Below, piece by piece: positions 9,288 through 30,649 of a DNA stretch of 64,000 bases. The number at the start of each line of letters is the position of its first letter. The stretch's first letter is position 1. The notes beneath the pieces were generated by a model, which did no database searches, was not told the origin of the DNA, and was given only the letters and a program-made list of their open reading frames with translations. The stretch is from Cyanobacteria bacterium FACHB-502 (GTDB lineage Bacteria; Cyanobacteriota; Cyanobacteriia; Elainellales; Elainellaceae). A program made the translations under genes and the position numbers. The DNA lies in NCBI GenBank assembly GCA_014695325.1, contig JACJNZ010000048.1, forward strand, positions 310,001 to 374,000, in the 5' to 3' direction.

Positions 9288-9788
9288 ATGACATATACCA
9301 CGTCGAATTCTTCCACTGAGCTAGTACAAGCTTTTCAGAGCCTGGATGTTGATCAGCAGCTTGCACTCTTTTATTTCATTTACAAGGAAATGGGCGACTC
9401 TGTGACTCCGGCTGCCCCCGCTGCCAGCACCGTTTCTCCAGAGATTGCAGAAGGATTGTTCAATCAGGTTAAAGAACTCTCTCATGAAGAGCAGCTTCAG
9501 CTTCAGCGCGACTTAGTTATGCGGAAAAACAGCTTTATTGCGCGAGAATATGGGGCACTGAGCGACACGACAAAACTTCTGTTCTGGTATTACTTGTCTC
9601 AGGGAATGGATCAGGGAACGATTATTCCCATGCCTGCAAACTATGAGCTTTCTGAGCAAGCAAATCAACTCTTTGAGCAAATCAAGGGGCTTGATTTTGG
9701 TCAGCAAATTACCCTGTTCCGTGACATTGTTGCACCAATGGGCGTTGACCCGACCACGGCTGAACACAACGAAGAAACCGGACTGTAG
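9288..9788 (+). CDS. Helical carotenoid protein (stand-alone OCP N-terminal domain)
   Basis: 166 residues matching only the all-helical carotenoid-binding N-terminal domain of orange carotenoid protein; the NTF2-like C-terminal domain is absent. Landmarks align with OCP: DQQLALFYFIYKEMG (Tyr29 where OCP has Trp41, Tyr32 for Tyr44), KLLFWYYLSQGM (Trp100 for OCP Trp110), IIPMP, and GLDFGQQITLFRDIVAPMG. Such HCPs bind a ketocarotenoid and, by clade, quench phycobilisomes or singlet oxygen, or pair with a separate C-terminal-domain homologue. No CTDH gene is adjacent. It is probably high-light or stress inducible, but the sequence alone does not show that. Confidence 0.88.
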   Translation: MTYTTSNSSTELVQAFQSLDVDQQLALFYFIYKEMGDSVTPAAPAASTVSPEIAEGLFNQVKELSHEEQLQLQRDLVMRKNSFIAREYGALSDTTKLLFWYYLSQGMDQGTIIPMPANYELSEQANQLFEQIKGLDFGQQITLFRDIVAPMGVDPTTAEHNEETGL

Positions 9789-15762: not shown

Positions 15763-16572
15763 ATGAAAGGATTAAAGGGAAAAACCGCACTGATTACGGG
15801 CGCAAGTTCGGGAATTGGACAGGCGATCGCCGTTCGTTTGGCGCAAGAAGGCTGCAACATTGCGATCAACTACCGTAAAAATCCTGAAGGCGCAGAAGAT
15901 ACCGAAGAGCAGGCAATGCAAAAAGCCTGTGGACAGGCAGAAGAATGCGGCGTGCAGTCCCTATTAGTTCAGGGCGATGTATCCCAAGAAGAAGACATCG
16001 TAAACGTGATCAGTGCGACTGTTGACAAGTTTGGCGGTCTAGATATTTTGATCAACAATGCTGGAATTCAGACCGAGCAAGCCTCCCACGAAGTATCAAC
16101 CGACGAGTTCGATCGTGTAATCAACGTTAACTTGCGTGGAGCCTATCTCTGTGCGCGAGAAACAATTAAACATTTCCTGGCTCAGAACCGCCCCGGTGTC
16201 ATTATTAATGTCTCTAGCGTTCACGAAGTCATTCCCCGCCCTTCCTACATCAGCTACTCGATCAGCAAAGGCGGCATGGGAAATATGACTAAAACCCTAG
16301 CTCTGGAATACGCCAATCGCGGTATTCGGATCAATGCGATTGCCCCCGGAGCCACCATTACGCCCATTAACGACGCCTGGACCCATGATCCAGAACAAAA
16401 GGCGATCGTCGAAAGCCACATTCCAATGGGTCGTGCTGGAACGTCTGAAGAAATGGCAGCCGCCGTTGCCTTCCTGGTTTCGGATGAAGCGACCTACATC
16501 ACCGGGCAAACGCTATTTATCGATGGTGGACTCACGCTCTACGCCGATTTCCGGGAAGCCTGGTCAGCCTGA
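15763..16572 (+). CDS. SDR-family oxidoreductase (glucose 1-dehydrogenase-like)
   Basis: I choose ATG 15763 (269 residues) because the NAD(P) motif begins within eight residues: KTALITGASSGIGQAIA (TGxxxGIG). Other SDR landmarks are NNAG (LINNAGIQTE), the catalytic Ser-Tyr-Lys (NVSSVHE..., YISYSISKGG with Tyr and Lys four apart) and the C-terminal ITGQTLFIDGGLTLY. The insertion TEEQAMQKACGQAEECG after the second strand resembles glucose 1-dehydrogenases and related SDRs. The substrate is not certain. The end overlaps the convergent hydrolase gene by 34 bp. Confidence 0.88.
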   Translation: MKGLKGKTALITGASSGIGQAIAVRLAQEGCNIAINYRKNPEGAEDTEEQAMQKACGQAEECGVQSLLVQGDVSQEEDIVNVISATVDKFGGLDILINNAGIQTEQASHEVSTDEFDRVINVNLRGAYLCARETIKHFLAQNRPGVIINVSSVHEVIPRPSYISYSISKGGMGNMTKTLALEYANRGIRINAIAPGATITPINDAWTHDPEQKAIVESHIPMGRAGTSEEMAAAVAFLVSDEATYITGQTLFIDGGLTLYADFREAWSA

Positions 16573-17456
16573 GCTGCAAACCACTCAATCAATAACGGAT
16601 TGACGATCTCAGGAGCTTCGTCCTGGGGACAGTGACCAATTCCAGGTAACGGCACAAATTGCTTGACCGCCGGAAATTCCGCCAGGGCTTTCCCCTTCTC
16701 AAACGGCTCCCACGGGTCATCGATTCCCCAAGCAATCAGGACTGGAACCTGAACTTGTGGCAGGAGATCCTCTGGTAAAACGCCTTTGGAATAAGTGATG
16801 AACGACAGAAACACATCGGCTGCGCCCTCGTCCTGGGCAGGCTTGAGCAAAATTTCGACCAGCTCATCGGTAACGGCTTCTTTGCGGCTATATGCCTTCA
16901 GTAGTGCTTTGCGAATCACTTGCGGCTGAGCCAGCTTTGAGAAAAAGAAGTGCCCGATCGCCGGATGCGTCAACAGCTTTTGCACCCGCGGAAAAACAAT
17001 TCGTCGATACCAGTTCAGCTTTCGCTCATGCTGGAGCCGCAATGCACAATCTAACAGGGCTAGCGACTTTATTTGCTCAGGCTGATTCACTGCTGCCTGT
17101 AATCCCACCAAACAGCCGATTGAATTTGCCGCAATATGGACAGGTTCGTCAATCACGTCTCGGCAAAAATCGTTAATTTGTTCGCCCCAGGTCTCAAATC
17201 GGTAGTGAATTGCTTCTCCCGGCTTGGGTTTCGCCGATTCGCCAAAGCCAATCAGATCGATCGCATACACCCGATGCTGCTGTGCTAACGCTTCAATATT
17301 CCTGCGCCAGTGCCGACAGGATGCCCCCAGCCCGTGAATCAGCAAAACTGCCGTTCCCGCCGTTCCTGCGGTTTGATAGGCGATCGAAAACCCGCGCCAC
17401 TGCCAAAATTGAGTTGTGAGCTGAGAACCAGACGCGATCGATTGATTGATAATCAT
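16539..17456 (-). CDS. Alpha/beta hydrolase
   Basis: 305 residues with the alpha/beta hydrolase fold: oxyanion region VLLIHGLGASCRHW, DLIGFGES, nucleophile elbow AANSIGCLVG (G-N-S-x-G variant, Ser in N-S-I-G), then the acid at IAWGIDDPWEP and the catalytic His near PLPGIGHCPQDEAPE. Similar proteins appear in cyanobacteria and plants as pheophytinase/PpaP-like or esterase homologues. The substrate is unknown. Confidence 0.83.
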   Translation of the reverse strand: MIINQSIASGSQLTTQFWQWRGFSIAYQTAGTAGTAVLLIHGLGASCRHWRRNIEALAQQHRVYAIDLIGFGESAKPKPGEAIHYRFETWGEQINDFCRDVIDEPVHIAANSIGCLVGLQAAVNQPEQIKSLALLDCALRLQHERKLNWYRRIVFPRVQKLLTHPAIGHFFFSKLAQPQVIRKALLKAYSRKEAVTDELVEILLKPAQDEGAADVFLSFITYSKGVLPEDLLPQVQVPVLIAWGIDDPWEPFEKGKALAEFPAVKQFVPLPGIGHCPQDEAPEIVNPLLIEWFAAQADQASRKSA

Positions 17457-17717: not shown

Positions 17718-18071
17718 TTATTCCAGTGCGTCCCAGATATTTTTGGGAACACTGCTGCGTCCTTTACGAGAGATGAGATTCGGCTGATAGTGGCAAGTAT
17801 TGGCTTGTTCAACTTTCTGGATAAATCCTTGAGCAATTAGCTCGCTCAGCAAAGCTTCAATTGCGGACTCCGATTGATCGAAATGAACAGCAATCTCAGA
17901 GACCGTTGCCTGCTGGTGACGAACTAGCCAATTCATCAGCGATCGTTCCCTTTCCGCTAGAAACAGCAAATCTGCCATTGTTCGCGTGGATAAGCCTGCG
18001 CTGCGGCGGGACTGTTTTCTTGCAGGCTGCTCCGCCTGGGGTTCTAATTGCCATTCGGGATTATCCGACAT
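17718..18071 (-). CDS. Winged-helix DNA-binding-like protein
   Basis: The likely start is ATG 18071, which overlaps the end of the ParA-like gene by 11 bp (ATGTCGGATAA), giving 117 residues; upstream sequence in the same frame is the shadow of the ATPase gene. The N-terminal 30 residues are polar. The centre (LAERERSLMNWLVRHQ, then ATVSEIAVHFDQSESAIEALL) is a helix-turn-helix, followed by a wing (AQGFIQKV...HYQPN). The tail ends in VPKNIWDALE. The overlap implies translational coupling with the ATPase, so it is its probable partner. Confidence 0.78.
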   Translation of the reverse strand: MSDNPEWQLEPQAEQPARKQSRRSAGLSTRTMADLLFLAERERSLMNWLVRHQQATVSEIAVHFDQSESAIEALLSELIAQGFIQKVEQANTCHYQPNLISRKGRSSVPKNIWDALE

Positions 18072-18846
18072 ACTCCAGTGCCAGTAATTTTTGCGCGACG
18101 GTATGCACTTCTTCGCTAAACGTATGGTGGGGATGATGCAGCCAAAACACGCCGCCGCTTGCCAGTTGCAGCATTTCCTCGTTTTCGTAGAACAAACCGC
18201 CCACCGGAACGCCGTAGCGCGTTTGCACTTGTTCCAGCACCGAAGCACGAGAGAAGGCTTGAGGCGTTTTGTTGACCAGCAGCATAATATTGGGCACGTC
18301 GAGCCGCTGCGCCACTTCTAAAGTCACTGCCGTACCCAGAAAATCTTGGCGATCGGGACGCAGAATAATCACCATCGCATCGGAAATTGCGATCGACAGC
18401 AGCGTTTCCTCGTTTAAGCCGGGGTGCGTGTCGATAAAAAGGTAGTCCAGGTCTAGCTGTTCGGTGAGTTCCTGAAAGCCTTCGTTCAGCAGACCAACAT
18501 CAAAGCCTTCTCGCAGCACCTTGGCGATTTCTCCGGCTTTGAGGCTAGAGGGCACCAGATAAACCTTGCCTGCGAGATTAGCGGTTCCGGTGGCAGTTTG
18601 GAGCTGAGAAGTGACATCATAGGCAGTTTTTTCAATGGGGCACTGTCCCCATAAATAATCGTTCAGCGAGTAGTTAAAGGAATCTTCGTCCAGACCGAAA
18701 ATGACGTGAATTCCGGGCGACTGAATATCAGTGTCTACAATGCCAACTCGCTTGCCCTGACTAGCGATCGCCACTGCCAGATTTGCCGTCAGGTTAGATT
18801 TCCCCGTGCCACCCCGGAAGGAGTGAATTGAAATGATTTGAGACAT
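18061..18846 (-). CDS. ParA/MinD-family ATPase with Arg in the signature position
   Basis: 261 residues. The deviant Walker A box reads SFRGGTGKSN, with Arg in place of the usual signature Lys of K-G-G-x-G-K-[ST]. The A' motif is VDTDIQSPG and Walker B is FIDTHPGLNEET, both in the normal order. These ATPases form ATP sandwich dimers and position cargo on nucleoid or membrane. The C-terminus (LHHPHHTFSEEVHTVAQKLLALEYVG, in two parts) has no obvious amphipathic MinD tail. Its partner gene overlaps downstream; a tail-anchored cNMP receptor is divergent. No chromosomal parB or minCE is nearby. The cargo is unknown. Confidence 0.85.
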   Translation of the reverse strand: MSQIISIHSFRGGTGKSNLTANLAVAIASQGKRVGIVDTDIQSPGIHVIFGLDEDSFNYSLNDYLWGQCPIEKTAYDVTSQLQTATGTANLAGKVYLVPSSLKAGEIAKVLREGFDVGLLNEGFQELTEQLDLDYLFIDTHPGLNEETLLSIAISDAMVIILRPDRQDFLGTAVTLEVAQRLDVPNIMLLVNKTPQAFSRASVLEQVQTRYGVPVGGLFYENEEMLQLASGGVFWLHHPHHTFSEEVHTVAQKLLALEYVG

Positions 18847-18903
18847 AAAGCGTCCCTCTAATAAAACCAGGATTTTGAGATAGGCGATAAACCTGAATAC
18901 AGT

Positions 18904-19461
18904 ATGGGAACAATGGGCGAGAAACTATCACACTTCAGTAACGACTTTATGGAAAAGCGAACTTATGCACCGGGGGACGTGGTGTATCAGGAAGGCGATG
19001 CCAGCGACAACGTTTATCTAATTAAAAGCGGACGGATTGAGCTAGTCGATCGCTATCCCGAAACAGGGGAAGTGGTGGCAAAAACGCTGGGTGTGGGCAA
19101 AGTCTTTGGTGAGATTGAGCTAATCGATCGCAAGTCGCGTTCCTCAACGGCAAAAGTGATGGAATCGACGAAAGTTATGATCTTCAGCCACGAAGAAATT
19201 CTAGACGTTTTGTTTAAACACCCGGAACAAAGTCTGGTTCTGGCACGGGATGTCTTCGATCGCCTCAGGCAGCTTTACAGCACCGATAGCCTGGACGCAG
19301 AAATGACCAAACTGCGCGAAGAAATGCACGAAACCATCAAGAAAGCGGTGATTAGTCATGAATCTCGCGTGGTCAAAAGCCATAATGGCATGGCGGCAAT
19401 TGCAATTCCGATCGTGTTGCTGGTGGCGATCGTCATTGGCATTCGTGTCTATCTACATTAA
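18904..19461 (+). CDS. Tail-anchored cyclic-nucleotide-binding protein
   Basis: 185 residues. A CRP/PKA-type cyclic-nucleotide-binding domain (about 5-125) contains the phosphate-binding cassette FGEIELIDRKSRSSTA, with the Glu and Arg that contact cAMP/cGMP. A charged coiled-coil helix (EMTKLREEMHETIKKAV) and a single C-terminal transmembrane segment (about 162-183, AAIAIPIVLLVAIVIGI) follow. There is no DNA-binding domain, so it is a membrane-bound receptor rather than a transcription factor. It is divergent from the ParA-like gene (57 bp between starts), suggesting shared regulation. Confidence 0.85.
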   Translation: MGTMGEKLSHFSNDFMEKRTYAPGDVVYQEGDASDNVYLIKSGRIELVDRYPETGEVVAKTLGVGKVFGEIELIDRKSRSSTAKVMESTKVMIFSHEEILDVLFKHPEQSLVLARDVFDRLRQLYSTDSLDAEMTKLREEMHETIKKAVISHESRVVKSHNGMAAIAIPIVLLVAIVIGIRVYLH

Positions 19462-20299: not shown

Positions 20300-21319
20300 A
20301 TGCAAGCGACAATGCGGAAACCCCTGATCAAGCTCATCGGATGGACGACGCTGGTGCTGCTGCTCTGGTTGGCGGTTCCGATTGCAATACCAGACGCAGT
20401 TGCAAGTCACAGTGCAGCTCAAAGCCCCCCTCAAAGTTCTCCTCAAAGTCCCCCTCAAAGTTCCTCATCAATTCAGGATGGAGAGGGCGAAAGAATCTTA
20501 AGGACAAAACAGGCCCCGAATGCAGGCTCCGCAGCCCTGCAAGAGAGCCGATCACCCATGCCGCCAGACGTTCAGCGGATTTTGCGGCGCGGTAAGCTCG
20601 TGGTGGCAATGCTAAATCAAGACAATCCGCCTTTTTTTATAACTGCTGAAGGAACGCCAGAAGGCTCCGACGTTCAGGTTGCGCGATCGATCGCGGAGCA
20701 GCTTGGGGTTTCGGTAGAGTTTAATCGATCGGCAAAGACGTTTGATCAGGTGGTGCAGACGGTGTATCGTCTCGATGCGGATCTGGCAATCTCGAAGCTG
20801 AGCCGAACGCTGAGCCGTGCTAAATTTGTGCGTTTTAGTCAACCTTACGTCACCATGCGGCAGGGTTTGCTGGTGAACCGACTTCAGCTTGTACAGCAGG
20901 CAAACGGACGCAGCATTCCTGAAGTGATTCGGAATTTGGAAGGCAAGATCGGCGTGATCCAGGGATCTTCCTATGTTGGGTTTACTCAAAAGCGATTTCC
21001 CAAAGCAGAAGTGGTCGAGTTTCCGTCCTGGTCTGCCGCGGTGGATGCGGTGATTCGAGGTGAGGTGCTAGCAACCTATCGCGATGAACTGGAGGTTAAG
21101 AAAGTAGTACTCAGTAAACCCGATGCTGCCCTTCAGCTTCAGACGATTGCCCTGACCGACACCGAAGATGCGATCGCCATTGCCCTTCCCTGGGACAGCC
21201 AACATCTGCTGGCATTTGTGAATCAGGCACTTGACACGATGAATATCAATGACACCGCAGATAGCCTGCTGCAAGCTTATTCCAATCGGCTTCAGACCAA
21301 TTCTCAAGGAAAGCGGTAG
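20300..21319 (+). CDS. Periplasmic amino-acid-binding protein (SBP family 3)
   Basis: 339 residues. The N-terminal signal or anchor is KLIGWTTLVLLLWLAVPIAIP, followed by a Pro/Gln/Ser-rich stretch with short repeats (SPPQSSPQ). The family 3 SBP fold starts at VQRILRRGKLVVAM, with ADLAISKLSRTLSRAKFVRFS as lobe-crossing region and GKIGVIQGSSYVGF in lobe 2. It binds a polar amino acid; acidic specificity is inferred from the neighbours. There are no ABC permease or ATPase genes next to it. Instead a DAACS-type transporter gene begins 8 bp after its stop. Confidence 0.84.
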   Translation: MQATMRKPLIKLIGWTTLVLLLWLAVPIAIPDAVASHSAAQSPPQSSPQSPPQSSSSIQDGEGERILRTKQAPNAGSAALQESRSPMPPDVQRILRRGKLVVAMLNQDNPPFFITAEGTPEGSDVQVARSIAEQLGVSVEFNRSAKTFDQVVQTVYRLDADLAISKLSRTLSRAKFVRFSQPYVTMRQGLLVNRLQLVQQANGRSIPEVIRNLEGKIGVIQGSSYVGFTQKRFPKAEVVEFPSWSAAVDAVIRGEVLATYRDELEVKKVVLSKPDAALQLQTIALTDTEDAIAIALPWDSQHLLAFVNQALDTMNINDTADSLLQAYSNRLQTNSQGKR

Positions 21320-21326
21320 GAAAGCG

Positions 21327-22700
21327 ATGTCAAAGTATTTCTCAAGATATTTCTCAAAGACCTCCTCAAACTATCCCAAGTTTTTCTCCGTTCCATTCCT
21401 GATTCGGTGGCTAAAAAGTCCCTGGACGATCGCCGTTAGCGTTGGGCTGAGTATCTATCTAGGAACTTGTCAGCCTCAGATTGCCGCGTCGATCGCCCCC
21501 CTGGGACAGTTTTATTTAAGCTTGCTGAAGATGTGCGTTCTGCCGATTTTGCTTTCTGCGGTAACAGTGAGTACAGGGCGACTGATGATGACGGATAATG
21601 CCGCTCGATCGATCCGGCGCATTGCCGCTGTGTTTCCGATCGGGTTGCTGCTGGTGAGCAGTATTGCCGTTGCGATCGCCACCCTGGCTCAGCCGGGGAA
21701 AAATCTTTCGGCTTCAGCTCTGAAGAAATTAGGCATTTTAGTCAATCAGTCGGGAATCGATCTGGAAATTTCATTAAGCGGGGCAGAAATACAGCCTGAA
21801 GAATTTCCGCTGAATCAATTGCTGGTCAATCTGATTCCAGAAAATATCTTTAGTGCGCTGAGCGAAGGGCAAACGCTGAGAGTTTTAGTGTTTGCGCTCG
21901 TCTTTGGCATTTCGCTGGGACTCGTGCGAGAACCTGCCACGCAATCGTTGTTTGCAGCGTTAGAAAGTGTTTATCATGCCTGCAATCGGCTAATTCAAGG
22001 ATTAACTGTTTTATTACCGCTTGGGTTATGCAGCTTATTGACGACCCAGTTTTCGCAGTTGGGCATTGATATTCTGTTTTCCATGATTCGGTTTGTGCTG
22101 ATTGCCATTCTCACTTTTGTCATCATTTATATTCTCAGTACCATTATCATTTGGCGACAAACCAATCAATCATTTCTAACCGTCCTAGCACAGCTTAAAG
22201 AGTCAACCTTTCTGGCACTGGCAACGTCGAGCAGCCTTGCCTGCATTCCCTCAGCAATCTCCGCGCTGAGCAACGGTTTAGGCTTCGATCGCCAAACAAC
22301 CCAGCTTTTGACGCCGCTTTCGATTACACTCTGCCGCTTTGGATCGGTGATTTACTTTGCCCTGGCTGCTCTGTTTGTCGCCCAGCTTTACAACAAAGAT
22401 TTGAGCGGGGGACAGTTGGCACTCGTCGTGGTTCTCTCGATTCTAGCGGGCATGGCAACTTCGGGCGCAACGAGCGTGATCACGCTGACCATGCTCGACA
22501 TTGTGCTGAATCCCCTGAAACTTCCCTTGGAAGCAGTGCTGGTGCTGTTTATTGCGATCGATCCCATTGTTGATCCCTTCCGCACCTTGGGAATTGTCCA
22601 TACAGGGATTGCCGCAACTGCCCTAGTTGCTCAATCCGAAGCGGAACCAAGGATCGATATTTCAACCCTTCCGCCCTGTTTACCCGACTCTACGCTGTGA
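21327..22700 (+). CDS. DAACS (glutamate/aspartate)-type transporter, atypical
   Basis: Start ATG 21327 after a GGAAAG-type ribosome-binding site (457 residues). It has the usual eight-helix plus two-hairpin layout: hairpin 1 region LATSSSLACIPSAI and C-terminal IDPIVDPFRTLGIVHTG. By alignment from memory with GltPh, the substrate-contacting Asp394 and Arg397 correspond to the Asp and Arg of DPFRT. The NMDGT sodium motif reads LCRFGS, and Asn401 and Asp405 appear lost. So it is probably an acidic-amino-acid carrier with changed ion coupling. It is translationally close to the upstream SBP and the downstream sensor. Confidence 0.82.
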   Translation: MSKYFSRYFSKTSSNYPKFFSVPFLIRWLKSPWTIAVSVGLSIYLGTCQPQIAASIAPLGQFYLSLLKMCVLPILLSAVTVSTGRLMMTDNAARSIRRIAAVFPIGLLLVSSIAVAIATLAQPGKNLSASALKKLGILVNQSGIDLEISLSGAEIQPEEFPLNQLLVNLIPENIFSALSEGQTLRVLVFALVFGISLGLVREPATQSLFAALESVYHACNRLIQGLTVLLPLGLCSLLTTQFSQLGIDILFSMIRFVLIAILTFVIIYILSTIIIWRQTNQSFLTVLAQLKESTFLALATSSSLACIPSAISALSNGLGFDRQTTQLLTPLSITLCRFGSVIYFALAALFVAQLYNKDLSGGQLALVVVLSILAGMATSGATSVITLTMLDIVLNPLKLPLEAVLVLFIAIDPIVDPFRTLGIVHTGIAATALVAQSEAEPRIDISTLPPCLPDSTL

Positions 22701-22711
22701 GGAGATTTTCC

Positions 22712-24190
22712 GTGACCCGACTTCGCTCGCTGCAAAACTATCTCCGGTCAAAAGCAGGTACGCCTGGTCTCAAAGTCAGCCTGGTAGGAGCGATACTAGC
22801 AACCGTAGGCGCAACGGCTGCGATCGTCTATATTCCCTGTGCAATGACTTCGCGACGCAACGTGAATACGCTGATGACTCAGGTCAATCAGGAAATTGCC
22901 AATGCCACCAGTCAGGAAGTCAAGCGGCTGTTTCTGAGTGCCCAATCCGCGCAGCAGCTTGTAGACAGCAGTTTTACGCAGGAACTGATTGACCTGAACA
23001 ATTGGCAGGAGCAGGAAGCCTTTTTCCTGAGTACCCTTGCTGCCAATCCCGACTTTACCTGGATTCAGCTTGGCTTTGCAGACGGTGATTTTGTCGGCGT
23101 ACAGCGCACTGCGGATGATTTGCTGCACTTTCACGTTCGCGATTGGGATGGCAGGACTCGCACTACCCACAGCACCATTCGCACCTATCAGGTAGAAAAT
23201 CAGGAATTCAAGCAAATTGATCAGCACTCCGCCCCGATGGAGCCTGCGTTTTATGCGCCTGATCGCCCCTGGTATAAAAGTGCAATTCGTACTGACGGAA
23301 AGCCTGCCTGGACGGTTTATATTTATCGATCGACCAACGCGCCAGGAATGGATACAACGATTCGTCTACAGCAAGATCAAAAGACGATCGGAGTGATTGG
23401 AATTGGAATCGAGTTGGCTCAGCTTTCACGATATCTCGAACGCATGAAAGGCGATCGATCGGGAGAAGCCTTTATTCTCAATCCTGAACAGGAATTAATT
23501 GCTTCAACCGATCCGCAGGAAGTTTTTTCAGAGGCAAAACGTCAAACCCAGCTTCAGCAATTGAGCCAGGCGCAGAACCCGCTGCTTCAATTAGCAAATC
23601 AGACGATTCAAGCCCAAAAGATAAACCTTAGTACAATTCAAAATCAGCAGGAATACGTTTACGTCGATCCCAAAACCGGAGAGAGCTATCGCATCTCGCT
23701 ATCGCCCGTGGGCTATCTGGATTGGGTCGTGGGTGCGATTATTCCTGAGGCTGGCTACCTGGTTGAAATTAACCGCAGCAGGCAGGTTCTATTGATTGTG
23801 ATTAGCGTGTTTGTCTTGATAGCCGCGGGTCTGGCAATTATTGCAGTCGATCGGATTGTGGCACGTCCGATTCTTTGCATTGCCCACGTTGCCGCAGACA
23901 TTGAAGCCGAAACCTTTGAGCTAGATCACCTTTCCCCGGTCGCCCGCCGTACCGATGAACTGGGACAACTCGCCCGCATTTTTAAAAAAATGGCACAGCA
24001 AGTTTATCTACGCGAACAGCGACTCAAGCAGCAGGTTCAGGAATTAAAAATTGAGATCGACGAAGCCAAGCGACAAAAGCAAGTTAAAGAAATTGTCGAA
24101 ACCGACTTCTTCCAGGATCTTGTCGGCAAAGCACAAACGATGCGCCGGCGAAAACAGTCTCGATCGGCTCACGGAGCCTCTCAATTGTAA
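22712..24190 (+). CDS. dCache-HAMP membrane sensor without output domain
   Basis: GTG 22712 is chosen because GGAG lies seven bases upstream; the gene starts just after the preceding stop (22700). 492 residues: TM1 at about 25-45, a dCache extracytoplasmic domain (about 50-350, with DRPWYKSAIRTDGKPAWT and the SxQxxx-like IGIELAQLSRYLERM), TM2 (about 355-380), a HAMP domain, and a charged coiled coil that ends shortly after ETDFFQDL. No kinase, cyclase or methyl-accepting domain follows. Similar short dCache-HAMP proteins exist in cyanobacteria. It should sense a small ligand, possibly an amino acid, and signal through an unidentified partner. Confidence 0.82.
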   Translation: MTRLRSLQNYLRSKAGTPGLKVSLVGAILATVGATAAIVYIPCAMTSRRNVNTLMTQVNQEIANATSQEVKRLFLSAQSAQQLVDSSFTQELIDLNNWQEQEAFFLSTLAANPDFTWIQLGFADGDFVGVQRTADDLLHFHVRDWDGRTRTTHSTIRTYQVENQEFKQIDQHSAPMEPAFYAPDRPWYKSAIRTDGKPAWTVYIYRSTNAPGMDTTIRLQQDQKTIGVIGIGIELAQLSRYLERMKGDRSGEAFILNPEQELIASTDPQEVFSEAKRQTQLQQLSQAQNPLLQLANQTIQAQKINLSTIQNQQEYVYVDPKTGESYRISLSPVGYLDWVVGAIIPEAGYLVEINRSRQVLLIVISVFVLIAAGLAIIAVDRIVARPILCIAHVAADIEAETFELDHLSPVARRTDELGQLARIFKKMAQQVYLREQRLKQQVQELKIEIDEAKRQKQVKEIVETDFFQDLVGKAQTMRRRKQSRSAHGASQL

Positions 24191-24263: not shown

Positions 24264-25463
24264 CTATGTCCAGTACAGCACCTGCGCCTGCGGAAACCGC
24301 TTATTGATCTCCCCTTCAAAGAACTGGCGAAGCTGCCTCATCGTATTGCCGTCGTACACATACTTCGTGCCGCCAAACTTGTTGCGCTTGATAATGCGAT
24401 TCTGCTCGTCCATATCTAGCTTGCTGTTGGGATACCAGGCTTGCAGCACTTCCTTAGAGCCGGGCGTAAAGCGGTGCGAAATCAGCTCAAACGTGAGGTC
24501 ACAGGGGAAGTCGATCGCCTGCTCGATCTGATCGAACAAATCGCTGTAATGCTGCTCCCAGTCTTCGATCGGCATAATCGGCGCGATCACTAAACCGATC
24601 GGATAGCCACCGCCGCCCTGCTCACGCGGAAGTCCGAGCTTGCGGAGTGCCTGAAGCCGCTGAGGAACAGTCGCCGTACCGCCTTCGAGCTTCTGGGAAA
24701 CCCAGGCAGCATTGACGCTAACCCGACAGCGCGTATGCCCGTTATGCGGCAAATCCAGCAGCCCGTCTACGTTGTCAAACTTGGACACCCAGCGCAAATA
24801 GCCGTCCTCGCGTGTGCCAAAATAGCGAATCGCTTCTGCCAAGCTGCCCGTTAAATGCTCAATACCAAGCGGGTCGGTGTAGCAACTCACCTCAAAGCTA
24901 GTCGCCTTGCCCGGCTGCTCATACTTGCCTAGGTTGGCGAGAATCTGCGGCAGGTTAGCAAACACGCGAATCAGAGGTGGACCCTGCAAACTGCCTGCTA
25001 GATAGCAATATTGACAGTGACCCGGACAACCTTCAGCAATGTGAAACTGCCAGTCTGCGGAAGGTGGAATCGGGCTGAGCTTAAAGCTGCTGGGCGGAGC
25101 CGTCACCACTGCCAGCGTCCGCTTTGCTCTGGCATAAGTCTCGCGCTCGGTCTCACCCTTAACGCCTGTGATGCGATTGCGGCCTAACTCCTCGATCGGC
25201 AAATCGAGTGACTGCGCCCGTCGATAAAGCTCCTGTCCCCATGGCTCTTCGAGTGCCATCGGCGTAAACAAAACGCGCTCAGGCAACCACAGCCGCGATG
25301 AACGAAACGCACTCAGCTCGGGATGAATCGGTGCGGTAATATCAGTCGTTGGCTCAGGGGTTGTAGCGGGATCAAACGGACTAGTCTTAACAGTTTTAGC
25401 GTCTAAACCCGTAGTCTCTGCGGTCTCAAGGGGAAGCGTGAGTTGAGTAGGTGTAGCGATCAA
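24264..25463 (-). CDS. Spore photoproduct lyase-like radical SAM protein
   Basis: 399 residues from TTG 25463 with GGAG six bases upstream. The radical SAM motif is GCPGHCQYC (CxxxCxxC). The following sequence tracks B. subtilis SPL closely as I recall it: SCYTDPLGIEHLTGSL, HNGHTRCRVSVNA, FELISHRFTPGSK and KYVYDG, ending near VLYWT. A Cys in SCYTD is in the region of SPL's hydrogen-donor Cys141. SPL repairs the thymine dimer 5-thyminyl-5,6-dihydrothymine. Cyanobacteria do not sporulate, so the substrate is uncertain. Divergent from a second SPL-like gene. Confidence 0.85.
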   Translation of the reverse strand: MIATPTQLTLPLETAETTGLDAKTVKTSPFDPATTPEPTTDITAPIHPELSAFRSSRLWLPERVLFTPMALEEPWGQELYRRAQSLDLPIEELGRNRITGVKGETERETYARAKRTLAVVTAPPSSFKLSPIPPSADWQFHIAEGCPGHCQYCYLAGSLQGPPLIRVFANLPQILANLGKYEQPGKATSFEVSCYTDPLGIEHLTGSLAEAIRYFGTREDGYLRWVSKFDNVDGLLDLPHNGHTRCRVSVNAAWVSQKLEGGTATVPQRLQALRKLGLPREQGGGGYPIGLVIAPIMPIEDWEQHYSDLFDQIEQAIDFPCDLTFELISHRFTPGSKEVLQAWYPNSKLDMDEQNRIIKRNKFGGTKYVYDGNTMRQLRQFFEGEINKRFPQAQVLYWT

Positions 25464-25662
25464 AATCCAGCTCCATGAATGACCTACTTTTAGTATGACG
25501 CACTCTCAAGGAGCATGAAATCTAGAAACAGCGCGGATCCCACCACTTTCAAGGACGGTCTTCCCCGGTCAGTTAACCTGCTTTCTAAAGGCGGATATCG
25601 CGCCTGTTCGATCGCCCCTCAACCTCATTACGATCAAGACAGATCACAACCAGGAGTTTGCT

Positions 25663-26829
25663 TTGCATACTGCCCCAACTGCAACTGATCTTCAGATCAA
25701 TGCTGAGATCAACGCTCCGATCGCTGCTCCCGCTTCATCTGGCGGCAATTCCACTCCAGAAGACATTTCGCTAAACCGTCTGCTGCAAGTCAAAGAGATT
25801 TACTATGAGCCTGCTGTATTAGAGTATGGGCGCGGACAGGAGATCCTCTCGCGTTATCCCAATGCGCGTCAGGTTGAGGTCGCTTCGCACTGGAAAATCC
25901 CCGATCTGCACGCCAACGAAGATTCAGTTGAGCATTGGAACCTGATCAAGCGCACGGTGCTGGTGCTGGGCGTGAAGAAATCGATCCAGGTGCGTCCAAA
26001 CGATCGCAGCGCAGACTTTATTGCCCCGTCCCATTCAAACGGGTGCGCGATGGCTTGCTCCTATTGCTTTGTTGCTCGCCGCAAGGGTTTCGCCAATCCA
26101 ATTACGACGTTTGTGAATATCGAGCAGATTCAAAAATATCTTAAGCGACACGCTGCACGACAGGGCGAAAAGACGATTTCTTCTCAAACTGATCCCCAAA
26201 ACTGGGTATATGAGATCGGAGAGAACAGCGATTGCTCGGTGGATGCTGCGATCTGCGATAACGTAAAGGATTTGATTACGCTCTTTCGTGATATTCCAAA
26301 TGCCAAAGCGACCTTTGCGACGAAGCGAGTGAATCGTGATTTGCTCAATTACGATCCACAGGGCAAGACTCGAATTCGCTTTAGCGTCATGCCTCAATCG
26401 ATTGCTCAGGTGGTAGATATTAGAACGTCCAGCATTGACGATCGCATTAATGCCGTGAATGATTTTGTGAGCGCAGGCTATGAAGTGCATCTCAATTTCG
26501 CGCCCGTCATCTATCACGAGAACTGGAAAGAAAACTACACCGCTCTGTTTCAGCAAATCGACGACACTCTATCCCCTACAGCGAAGGCACAGCTTCAGAG
26601 CGAGGTGATTTTCCTGACGCACAACGAAGGGCTACATAGCGTGAATATGGGCTGGCATCCGCAGGGCGAGAACCTGCTGTGGCGACCCGATTTGCAGGAG
26701 CCGAAGTATTCCCAGAATGGCGATGTTAACGTGCGATATAAGCGCGGCTTTAAGGGACAGCTCGTGTCGAGCTTCTGCGATTTGCTTAAGCAGCATTTGC
26801 CCTACTGCAATATTCGCTATGCGTTCTAA
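25663..26829 (+). CDS. Second SPL-like radical SAM protein
   Basis: 388 residues from TTG 25663 (CCAGGAG upstream). The radical SAM cluster motif is NGCAMACSYCF (CxxxCxxC). Downstream features such as ISSQTDPQNW, TKRVNRDLL, RIRFSVMPQ and LNFAPVIYHENWKENY resemble the SPL family but are much more diverged than in the divergent neighbour; the SCYTD-type Cys is replaced by SSQTD. It may be a partner subunit or a different lesion/RNA-modifying enzyme. The intergenic region (25464-25662) must carry both promoters. Confidence 0.82.
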   Translation: MHTAPTATDLQINAEINAPIAAPASSGGNSTPEDISLNRLLQVKEIYYEPAVLEYGRGQEILSRYPNARQVEVASHWKIPDLHANEDSVEHWNLIKRTVLVLGVKKSIQVRPNDRSADFIAPSHSNGCAMACSYCFVARRKGFANPITTFVNIEQIQKYLKRHAARQGEKTISSQTDPQNWVYEIGENSDCSVDAAICDNVKDLITLFRDIPNAKATFATKRVNRDLLNYDPQGKTRIRFSVMPQSIAQVVDIRTSSIDDRINAVNDFVSAGYEVHLNFAPVIYHENWKENYTALFQQIDDTLSPTAKAQLQSEVIFLTHNEGLHSVNMGWHPQGENLLWRPDLQEPKYSQNGDVNVRYKRGFKGQLVSSFCDLLKQHLPYCNIRYAF

Positions 26830-28819: not shown

Positions 28820-30649
28820 TTAGCGATCGCACGACAAATTGCCATTGACCAGTTTGCCGGTTTGCCAGGTGCCGCGCTGTGATCGTCCATCATTGAACAG
28901 AAAAATTCCGTCTCCATGACAGCGATTGTTCTGAAATGCACCCACATAGCGGTTGCCATCGCCCAAAAGCCAGATGCCCAGCCCCTCAAAGCGATCGGCT
29001 TTGAACTGTCCGATATAGCGTTTGCCGTTCGAGAAGCTGTAGGTGCCGCATCCTTCACGCTTGCCATTGCGGAATTCTCCGTCATAGCGATTGCCTGTAG
29101 GAAACACCATAATTCCTCGTCCGTCAGCAGGGCGATGAATCGCAGTTTCCCCTTTGAGGGAATTGGCATCTAGGGAGCCGTAATAACGAGTGCCATCAGC
29201 ATACTCATAGCTGGGCTTGCTAGACGACGGTAAGGAGGGGGGTGGAGGTTCCCGACAGGGTAAATTAGGCAGAACAGGAGCCTGGTCAGAAGGTTGCTGT
29301 CCGGGCAGAGTAGCAGATGGCACACTGGATGTTGGCACAGTAGAAGCTGGCACAGTGGACTGGAGGCGAGAGGGTATCAGGTGGCTGGATAGCGCAATTG
29401 CCGCTGCAACGAAACCACCGATCGCCAACCGCAGTTTCCAGGGCGAAGTCTGAAATCCAGCTAGGGTAATTGTTTTGGGAGTGGTTGCCGAGGCAGGGAG
29501 AACGGGGAACGGGCTAGGAGCAAGGGTGGGAGCAACCTCTGAGGGTGAGGACTCTTTGGGGAGGAATGTTCCCTCTAAGTTTCCGTCAGCAGGAAAGCTT
29601 TTTTCAAAGGCTGGACTTACTGGGTCTGCGGCATCTTCTGCGGCAGTGACAAACGGCTCAGCGACTGAAACAAAGGGTACTATTCCTCCAAAGGAAGAAT
29701 CTTGACCCATCGCCTCTGCGGCCTCGTCGGATTCCTCAAATGCCATGAGCGTGGTGAAATCCCCGATTTCCTCAGGTTCGTCATCCGGGCATTCGCCTTG
29801 CTCAGCAATCAGTTGCTCGATCGCCTGCAAGGGTTCTTCAACCGTTTGATAGCGGTCTTTGAAGTGGTAACGCACCATGCGATCGAGGATTTCGGCAAAT
29901 GCCTCGCTCACGGGTGGATCAAGCGCTTGCCAGAGGAGTTCGCCGGTCTGGAAATCGCGCTGAAGCTGACTGGGGCGCACTCCCGTCAACGCTTGAATCC
30001 CAATCATGCCGACAGCATAAAGGTCACTGCTGTAGCGTGGACTGCCGCTAACCTGCTCAGGCGGCATATAGCCCTGTGTGCCAATCGAGATGGTGAGGGG
30101 TTGCTCCAAGGGCGAATCGTCCAGTAGAGTGCTGACTTGCTTCACGGCCCCAAAGTCGATCAAGACGAGCTTGCCATCTTTATGACGGCGGATTAGATTC
30201 GAGGGTTTAATATCCCGATGAATGACTTGCTGCTGATGGACAAAAGACAAAATCCCTAAAATGTCGTGCAGCCGTCGCAGCGTTTGCCCTTCCGTCCATT
30301 GCAGCACGCGGTTGTCGAGCGGTTGACCTTCAATAAATTCTTGAACCAGGAAAAATTCCTGGTTGTCTTCAAAGTGAGCGAGCAAACGCGGAATCTGATC
30401 ATGATTGCCCAGGCGGTAAAGCACGGCTGCCTCTGTGTCAAACAACCGCTTTGCGACCTGCCATCGCGTCATGTTTTTGCTGTGAGGATGAAGCTGCTTG
30501 ACCACGCAAAGGGGATACCCCGGCAACTGCGTATCCTTTGCCAGGAAGGTCTGGCTAAATCCACCCGATCCCAGTTGCCGAATTACGCAATAGCGTCCGC
30601 TAAGGAGCCGATCGGGAAGCAGCTTTTGAAATCGCTTAATGGAGTCCAA
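28820..30649 (-). CDS. Ser/Thr protein kinase fused to MORN repeats
   Basis: 609 residues from TTG 30649. Kinase domain (about 20-285): Gly loop GSGGFSQTF, Lys51, catalytic HRDIKPSN (Asp146), DFG as IDFGAVK (165-167) and GTQGYMPPEQ in the activation segment, all residues of an active Hanks-type kinase. An acidic/Ser/Pro linker and a membrane segment (about 395-420, LAIGGFVAAAIALSSHLIP) follow. The C-terminal part (about 480-605) has four or five MORN repeats (GNRYDGEFRNGKREGCG, GKRYIGQFKADRFEGLG, GNRYVGAFQNNRCHGDG). MORN repeats probably lie outside the cytoplasm and bind lipid or wall. Downstream are the proline-rich and transpeptidase genes. Confidence 0.9.
   Translation of the reverse strand: MDSIKRFQKLLPDRLLSGRYCVIRQLGSGGFSQTFLAKDTQLPGYPLCVVKQLHPHSKNMTRWQVAKRLFDTEAAVLYRLGNHDQIPRLLAHFEDNQEFFLVQEFIEGQPLDNRVLQWTEGQTLRRLHDILGILSFVHQQQVIHRDIKPSNLIRRHKDGKLVLIDFGAVKQVSTLLDDSPLEQPLTISIGTQGYMPPEQVSGSPRYSSDLYAVGMIGIQALTGVRPSQLQRDFQTGELLWQALDPPVSEAFAEILDRMVRYHFKDRYQTVEEPLQAIEQLIAEQGECPDDEPEEIGDFTTLMAFEESDEAAEAMGQDSSFGGIVPFVSVAEPFVTAAEDAADPVSPAFEKSFPADGNLEGTFLPKESSPSEVAPTLAPSPFPVLPASATTPKTITLAGFQTSPWKLRLAIGGFVAAAIALSSHLIPSRLQSTVPASTVPTSSVPSATLPGQQPSDQAPVLPNLPCREPPPPSLPSSSKPSYEYADGTRYYGSLDANSLKGETAIHRPADGRGIMVFPTGNRYDGEFRNGKREGCGTYSFSNGKRYIGQFKADRFEGLGIWLLGDGNRYVGAFQNNRCHGDGIFLFNDGRSQRGTWQTGKLVNGNLSCDR

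Follow-up and report, generated by a model that had tools for sequence, protein, structure and literature searches.

The partners of ParA/MinD ATPases are typically diverse and, as a rule, work through a short charged stretch. This diversity defeats recognition, which leaves many of the ATPases as orphans (PMC10241942). Which partner serves such an ATPase is the question raised by one locus in a 64,000-nucleotide stretch of contig JACJNZ010000048.1 of Cyanobacteria bacterium FACHB-502 (here ‘the window’). A sequence-only reading of the locus had proposed a partner next door, among the following features.

18061-18846, reverse strand: ATPase of MinD/ParA type, Arg-signature subfamily (261 aa; MSQIISIHSFRGGTGKSN; Pfam ParA/AAA_31)
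18793-18822, reverse strand: its P-loop SFRGGTGKSN, with Arg in place of the signature Lys
17718-18071, reverse strand: winged-helix (wHTH) protein of 117 aa with a conserved IWDALE motif at its end, overlapping the ATPase; adjacent or fused elsewhere
18904-19461, forward strand: CNB-TM, a cyclic-nucleotide-binding protein with a C-terminal membrane anchor (185 aa; Pfam cNMP_binding 8e-19)
19390-19458, forward strand: predicted C-terminal TM helix of CNB-TM (hydropathy maximum 2.7-2.8 in homologues)

An ATPase subfamily with a variant signature

The ATPase matches the Pfam families ParA, AAA_31 and CbiA (E 3e-17 to 6e-13), and NCBIfam matches were obtained too. The signature Lys of KGGxxK, the canonical mark of ParA/MinD, is missing; all 93 intact homologues, from Cyanobacteriota and Chloroflexota, carry the same motif S[FY]RGGTGKSN. 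Because Arg is identical in these 93 copies, it defines the subfamily and is no local oddity. D38 and D40 (A′), D139 (Walker B), R11 and K16 are invariant among 26 aligned homologues. Thus, the Arg-bearing Walker A motif of the sequence-only reading was borne out family-wide, as were its intact A′ and Walker B motifs. Judged by sequence, the Arg ATPases are a homologous ParA/MinD subfamily with a variant signature rather than canonical members. The window genome has a single copy (at E ≤ 1e-30), and in the surveys the subfamily ranged over cyanobacteria and Chloroflexota.

MinD is the nearest solved relative by PDB sequence comparison. It is also the best structural match to the fold of an ATPase homologue, with FleN and FleN/FleQ structures also among the matches. 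Septum-site MinD identity was rejected, as the scores with both curated models, 53.7 bits for minD_bact (cut-off 212.9) and 83.7 for minD_arch (cut-off 201.75), are far under the cut-offs. In the alignment, no MTS-like extension is evident at the C-terminus, which falls a few residues past the common core. When ATPase segments were ranked by conservation (with approximate numbering), no docking surface stood out besides the catalytic motifs. The conserved RPDxQDxxGTAV aligns with the MinD helix that binds MinE.

Recurrent and optional neighbours of the ATPase

Neighbourhoods were compared by calling and clustering ORFs over 15-20 kb around the ATPase in 20 genomes and over up to 20 kb for 80 named loci. 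The wHTH and ATPase genes share 11 bp (18061-18071), and the coordinates of this overlap, already seen in the sequence-only reading, were confirmed. The wHTH gives weak Pfam matches to FeoC and Penicillinase_R, and at 23 of the 80 named loci no more than 500 bp separate it from the ATPase. At five loci it is fused to a degenerate ATPase copy, with P-loops such as SFRHGTGKSN, SCRAGTGQSN and ACRHGTGCSH.

L080 8067-9212; L135 5084-6190; L143 8787-9851; L089 7493-8587; L083 560-1687: degenerate ATPase-wHTH fusions

AlphaFold predicts the winged helix of the L080 fusion with high confidence. At least four of the five fusions share their locus with an intact ATPase, and in Herpetosiphon a degenerate copy without wHTH adjoins an intact one; pairing of intact with degenerate subunits into heterodimers is an attractive possibility.

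The wHTH also occurs without the ATPase, in genomes G060 and G193 and inside eCIS-like proteins. It forms the N-terminus of TIR-WD40 and eCIS-like proteins (L146 3945-7049; L149 4127-6883; L148 1506-4454), and given these carriers the domain may be a general adaptor. As an obligatory part of the system it was rejected, being missing in many ATPase carriers. Its presence in these other proteins and its absence from many carriers point to an optional role as output or adaptor.

The genes of CNB-TM and the ATPase diverge across a gap of 57 bp, or 102 bp if the internal ATG at 18949, a start position matched by several homologues, is the true start. CNB-TM contains the FGE...R phosphate-binding cassette, a feature of CRP/FNR-like cNMP receptors, and its C-terminal 23 residues are a hydrophobic stretch, so ORFs, Pfam and hydropathy agree with the divergent, anchored receptor described from the sequence. 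Homologues keep the CNB pocket and the SHESRVVKSHNGMAAIAIP juxtamembrane/TM segment. Six named relatives, whose flanks differ, also have CNB-TM and the ATPase in divergent orientation, 33-222 bp apart; in L073 the divergent neighbour of CNB-TM is the wHTH gene, and the ATPase is 6 kb off. The C-terminal anchor signature was found in 5 of 194 cyanobacterial genomes. All five carry the ATPase. Neither pattern that the earlier reading had named as evidence of an accidental link, homologues that are not neighbours elsewhere or a CNB-TM living mostly without the ATPase, is what the genomes hold.

That reading took the three genes for a cNMP-responsive trio with CNB-TM as the main adaptor of the ATPase. 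The confinement of CNB-TM to ATPase carriers and its divergent adjacency in the window and the six relatives speak for such a trio, as does a compact operon of CNB-tail, ATPase and wHTH genes (L160 6416-8276) with a few-base overlap at each junction. On the other hand, 24 of the 29 cyanobacterial genomes with the ATPase lack CNB-TM, whereas all of them have the C-terminal sensor module described below (‘the tail’), and CNB-TM itself bears no tail module. This makes the trio improbable as the core of the system. What stands of the proposal is that the three genes belong together, with CNB-TM adjacent in six relatives and wHTH in 23 of 80 loci; what does not stand is CNB-TM as an obligatory or main adaptor, as both neighbours are accessory. 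By its distribution, CNB-TM is a genuine but optional, accessory part of the ATPase system.

Of the 80 loci, 17 have a CNB protein, of one architecture or another, no more than 2 kb from the ATPase; the 15 CNB domains above cut-off in the 6.6-Mb window genome would lead one to expect about one such locus. Three tail proteins have a CNB input domain. The L160 operon looks like a minimal version of the system, and together with the recurrent CNB proximity it gives independent support for a link between cyclic nucleotides and the ATPase. Directly downstream of the ATPase-wHTH pair, L061 (6562-9444) and L062 (10524-13388) encode a ~955-aa membrane ferredoxin-like protein with a C-terminal CNB.

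The CNB domain and TM anchor of CNB-TM are also the architecture of PycTM, and PADLOC gave weak matches of the CNB domain to Pycsar-type proteins; CNB-TM could then be an abortive-infection effector beside an unrelated ParA operon. In Pycsar, however, a cyclase is paired with the receptor (PMC11224242), and a cyclase is absent among the 17 window ORFs scanned around CNB-TM. With CNB-TM strictly confined to ATPase carriers as well, we regard this explanation as very improbable. Because some ATPase copies have CHAT-like, CHASE2 and TIR genes nearby, membership in a conflict system was weighed; it was rejected, as no defence-specific assignment was obtained for window proteins. Predicted-inactive MinD/ParA effector domains and wHTH have been described in conflict systems, the present system not being mentioned (PMC7159879).

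The companions of the ATPase differ among its clades. CNB-TM and wHTH accompany it in the window's clade; Nostocaceae and relatives have a CHASE2 protein, often also with wHTH; other cyanobacteria combine a HAMP sensor with a DUF7005 and a double-CNB protein; and in Herpetosiphon the companions are a HAMP sensor, a transporter-like MFS protein and an acetyltransferase-like one. The same groups emerge from a tree of 85 ATPases, in which the window belongs to a well-supported 12-member clade, with CNB-TM in eight loci and wHTH in nine. In several Nostocales and other cyanobacteria (L049 7406-9741 and relatives), the ATPase is followed by the DUF7005 protein, with an HECTH motif, and the double-CNB protein.

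A shared C-terminal module on unrelated sensors

The surroundings of the three genes include the following.

16539-17456, reverse strand: alpha/beta hydrolase downstream of wHTH, also in L066-L068
19478-20281, forward strand: Asp/Glu racemase family gene downstream of CNB-TM, start unsure (Pfam Asp_Glu_race 2.8e-32)
20300-21319, forward strand: periplasmic amino-acid-type binding protein (SBP_bac_3)
21249-22700, forward strand: Na+:dicarboxylate symporter family protein (Pfam SDF 4e-64)
22697-24190, forward strand: dCACHE-HAMP membrane sensor with no catalytic output domain (Pfam dCache_1 and HAMP; AlphaFold)
23987-24160, forward strand: C-terminal tail module of the sensor, coiled coil plus basic amphipathic helix VKEIVETDFFQDLVGKAQTMRRRK (profile A2, E 1.7e-25)

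CNB-TM, the racemase, the binding protein, the SDF symporter and, last, the sensor form a same-strand run whose order is kept in L068. Because a racemase, a binding protein and a symporter share the run, an amino acid or dicarboxylate is a reasonable guess for the sensor ligand. Elsewhere in the window lie two divergent spore-photoproduct-lyase-like genes side by side (24264-26829), a Ser/Thr protein kinase with C-terminal MORN repeats (28820-30649) and a stand-alone orange carotenoid protein N-terminal domain, or helical carotenoid protein (9288-9788).

For the 497-aa sensor, AlphaFold predicts two long membrane-type helices around dCACHE, followed by HAMP, a coiled coil and a separate C-terminal helix (470-491), the tail having a pLDDT of only 54-63. 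Pfam gave dCache_1, HAMP and a weak PDC match, and no DHp/HATPase output. This sensor is the single tail protein found in the window genome, 4 kb from the sole ATPase.

The tail module is 59 residues long. CHASE2 and HAMP proteins with unrelated inputs have the common end ‘...LxIEIDexKrxxQVxEIxETDyFqxLqxKAxxLR’, and so do GAF proteins; some CHASE2 and GAF tail proteins are without HAMP. Among 74 distinct tail proteins, Pfam found HAMP in 47, dCache_1 in 21, Tll0287-like in 10, CHASE2 in 9, GAF in 8, PAS in 7, cNMP_binding in 3 and a response receiver in 2, with single kinase/FHA cases (Pkinase/FHA); none of the 25 families listed for them is a histidine-kinase, GGDEF, cyclase or MCP output. 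From these annotations, tail-bearing proteins seem mostly to lack a catalytic output. The tail usually lies near the C-terminus and has a net charge of +2.9 per 17 aa, compared with −0.3 elsewhere. Its profile gave no convincing match to solved structures, and its helix could bind lipid rather than the ATPase. No natural tail-ATPase fusion was seen among the ORFs examined.

The tail-bearing proteins could alternatively be cargo, or cargo adaptors, which the ATPase spreads through the cell in the way that PpfA/TlpT or ParC/ParP handle chemoreceptor arrays, with sensing incidental. The closeness of the ATPase to MinD and FlhG/FleN in sequence and fold suits positioning, and so do the diverse charged partners typical of ParA/MinD ATPases and the many orphans among them (PMC10241942). 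But the tail sits on many unrelated sensory domains, mostly of output-less membrane receptors, which suits an output module better than a tag for cargo; the ATPase C-terminus, moreover, has no evident MTS-like extension. We hold positioning to be unlikely, though ahead of the trio and PycTM explanations.

Co-occurrence of the tail and the ATPase

Tail and ATPase were called at fixed thresholds (ATPase at E ≤ 1e-30, tail by profile) in 345 genomes of two phyla. In 194 genomes of Cyanobacteriota, the ATPase was found in 29 and the tail in 30, with both in 29/29; in 151 genomes of Chloroflexota, the counts were 21 and 22, with both in 21/21. Pooled, the tail is present in 50 of 50 ATPase genomes versus 2 of 295 others (Fisher p ~2e-58 with genomes treated as independent, an independence that p-values overstate because the samples include related genomes). 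The two non-carrier matches are weak, one (G116) being the HAMP-type coil of an EAL protein and the other (G339) covering model positions 2-34, the coiled coil, only; the ATPase is absent from both at E 1e-20. Six genera (g6, g14, g16, g21, g34, g45) contain species with both and species with neither, never with one alone, and ATPase and tail copy numbers are correlated (Spearman 0.81). The tail was also found somewhere in the genome of 30 of 32 named carriers, chosen mostly for having no tail near the ATPase; of the two without one, G211 carries a CHASE2 gene whose end is tail-like but degenerate (L119).

Tail and ATPase might travel on one mobile island without joint function, as the pair lies within 5 kb in 35 of the 50 genomes (44 of 90 tails). 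However, 15 genomes hold both, with no linked pair seen. Frequent but partial linkage means that the co-occurrence is more than a shared island, which argues for function. The adjacency of the sensor in the window is not strict, since the close relative L067 has its tail sensor on a separate contig. Nor does the profile seem merely to detect HAMP coiled coils, since it matched 2 of 295 ATPase-less genomes although HAMP proteins are common in bacteria, and the tail also ends CHASE2 and GAF proteins without HAMP. Both the island and the HAMP-coil explanations are largely refuted, and we give them very little weight.

The tail-ATPase partnership is thus strongly supported by the genome comparison. 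The candidate constant partner of the ATPase, by co-occurrence, is the tail, with CNB-TM and wHTH accessory. In place of the adjacent adaptor first proposed for the window, this is the sensor tail 4 kb away.

A proposed sensory pathway

We consider it rather probable that these parts form a modular system for sensing, with a MinD-like switch ATPase at its centre. The tail would dock on this ATPase and control it, with wHTH as the probable output and CNB-TM as an extra cNMP input. Physical docking, signal direction, the role of wHTH and the ligands are what we infer within this scheme. The dCACHE-HAMP receptor would sense a ligand on the outer side of the membrane, probably an amino acid or a related small molecule, and pass a conformational signal along the coiled coil to the C-terminal basic amphipathic helix. 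The helix would bind the Arg-signature ATPase in its ATP-bound, dimeric form and alter its ATPase or dimer state, much as MinE, McdB, ParB and FlhF peptides act on their own ATPases. The ATPase would then engage the co-encoded wHTH, the probable output being transcription or effector recruitment. CNB-TM would bring a second, cyclic-nucleotide input at the membrane, which in other lineages could come from a CNB directly on the tail.

As in MinD-MinE, the ATPase fold is shared and the partner, here the candidate tail, would act through a short charged helix; the differences are the Arg for the signature Lys, the lack of a recognisable membrane-targeting tail, the score far below curated MinD, and the location of the partner module at the C-terminus of sensor proteins. 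The proposed layout is reminiscent of FleN/FlhG-FleQ-FlhF, where a MinD-like ATPase controls a transcription regulator with the second messenger c-di-GMP, but the wHTH here is small and FeoC/MarR-like instead of an AAA+ regulator, and the receptors are CNB domains instead of c-di-GMP receptors. McdA-McdB, ParA-ParB and ParC/PpfA likewise combine an ATPase with a dedicated charged partner; the peptide of the known partners is N-terminal, whereas here one C-terminal module is shuffled among sensory domains (PMC10241942). As in two-component sensors and MCPs, the input modules (CACHE, CHASE2, HAMP, GAF, PAS) are coupled by a coiled coil to one conserved output segment, but here the segment is a non-catalytic stretch of ~59 aa, accompanied by an ATPase rather than a kinase.

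Our search of the open-access literature found no description of the Arg P-loop motif or of a ParA paired with CHASE2, HAMP or Cache. We tentatively suggest, with somewhat less than even confidence, an undescribed class of signal transduction in Cyanobacteriota and Chloroflexota, in which exchangeable sensors directly control a MinD-like ATPase through a common C-terminal module, and the dimer, or a heterodimer with a degenerate ATPase-wHTH, is the response element.

A candidate partner module has thereby been identified by sequence for a whole ATPase subfamily, across two phyla. If tail and ATPase interact, a large number of cyanobacterial and Chloroflexota sensors of the CACHE, CHASE2 and GAF kinds that have no output would acquire a downstream component, and ParA-type ATPases would take their place beside kinases, cyclases and chemotaxis arrays among sensory outputs.
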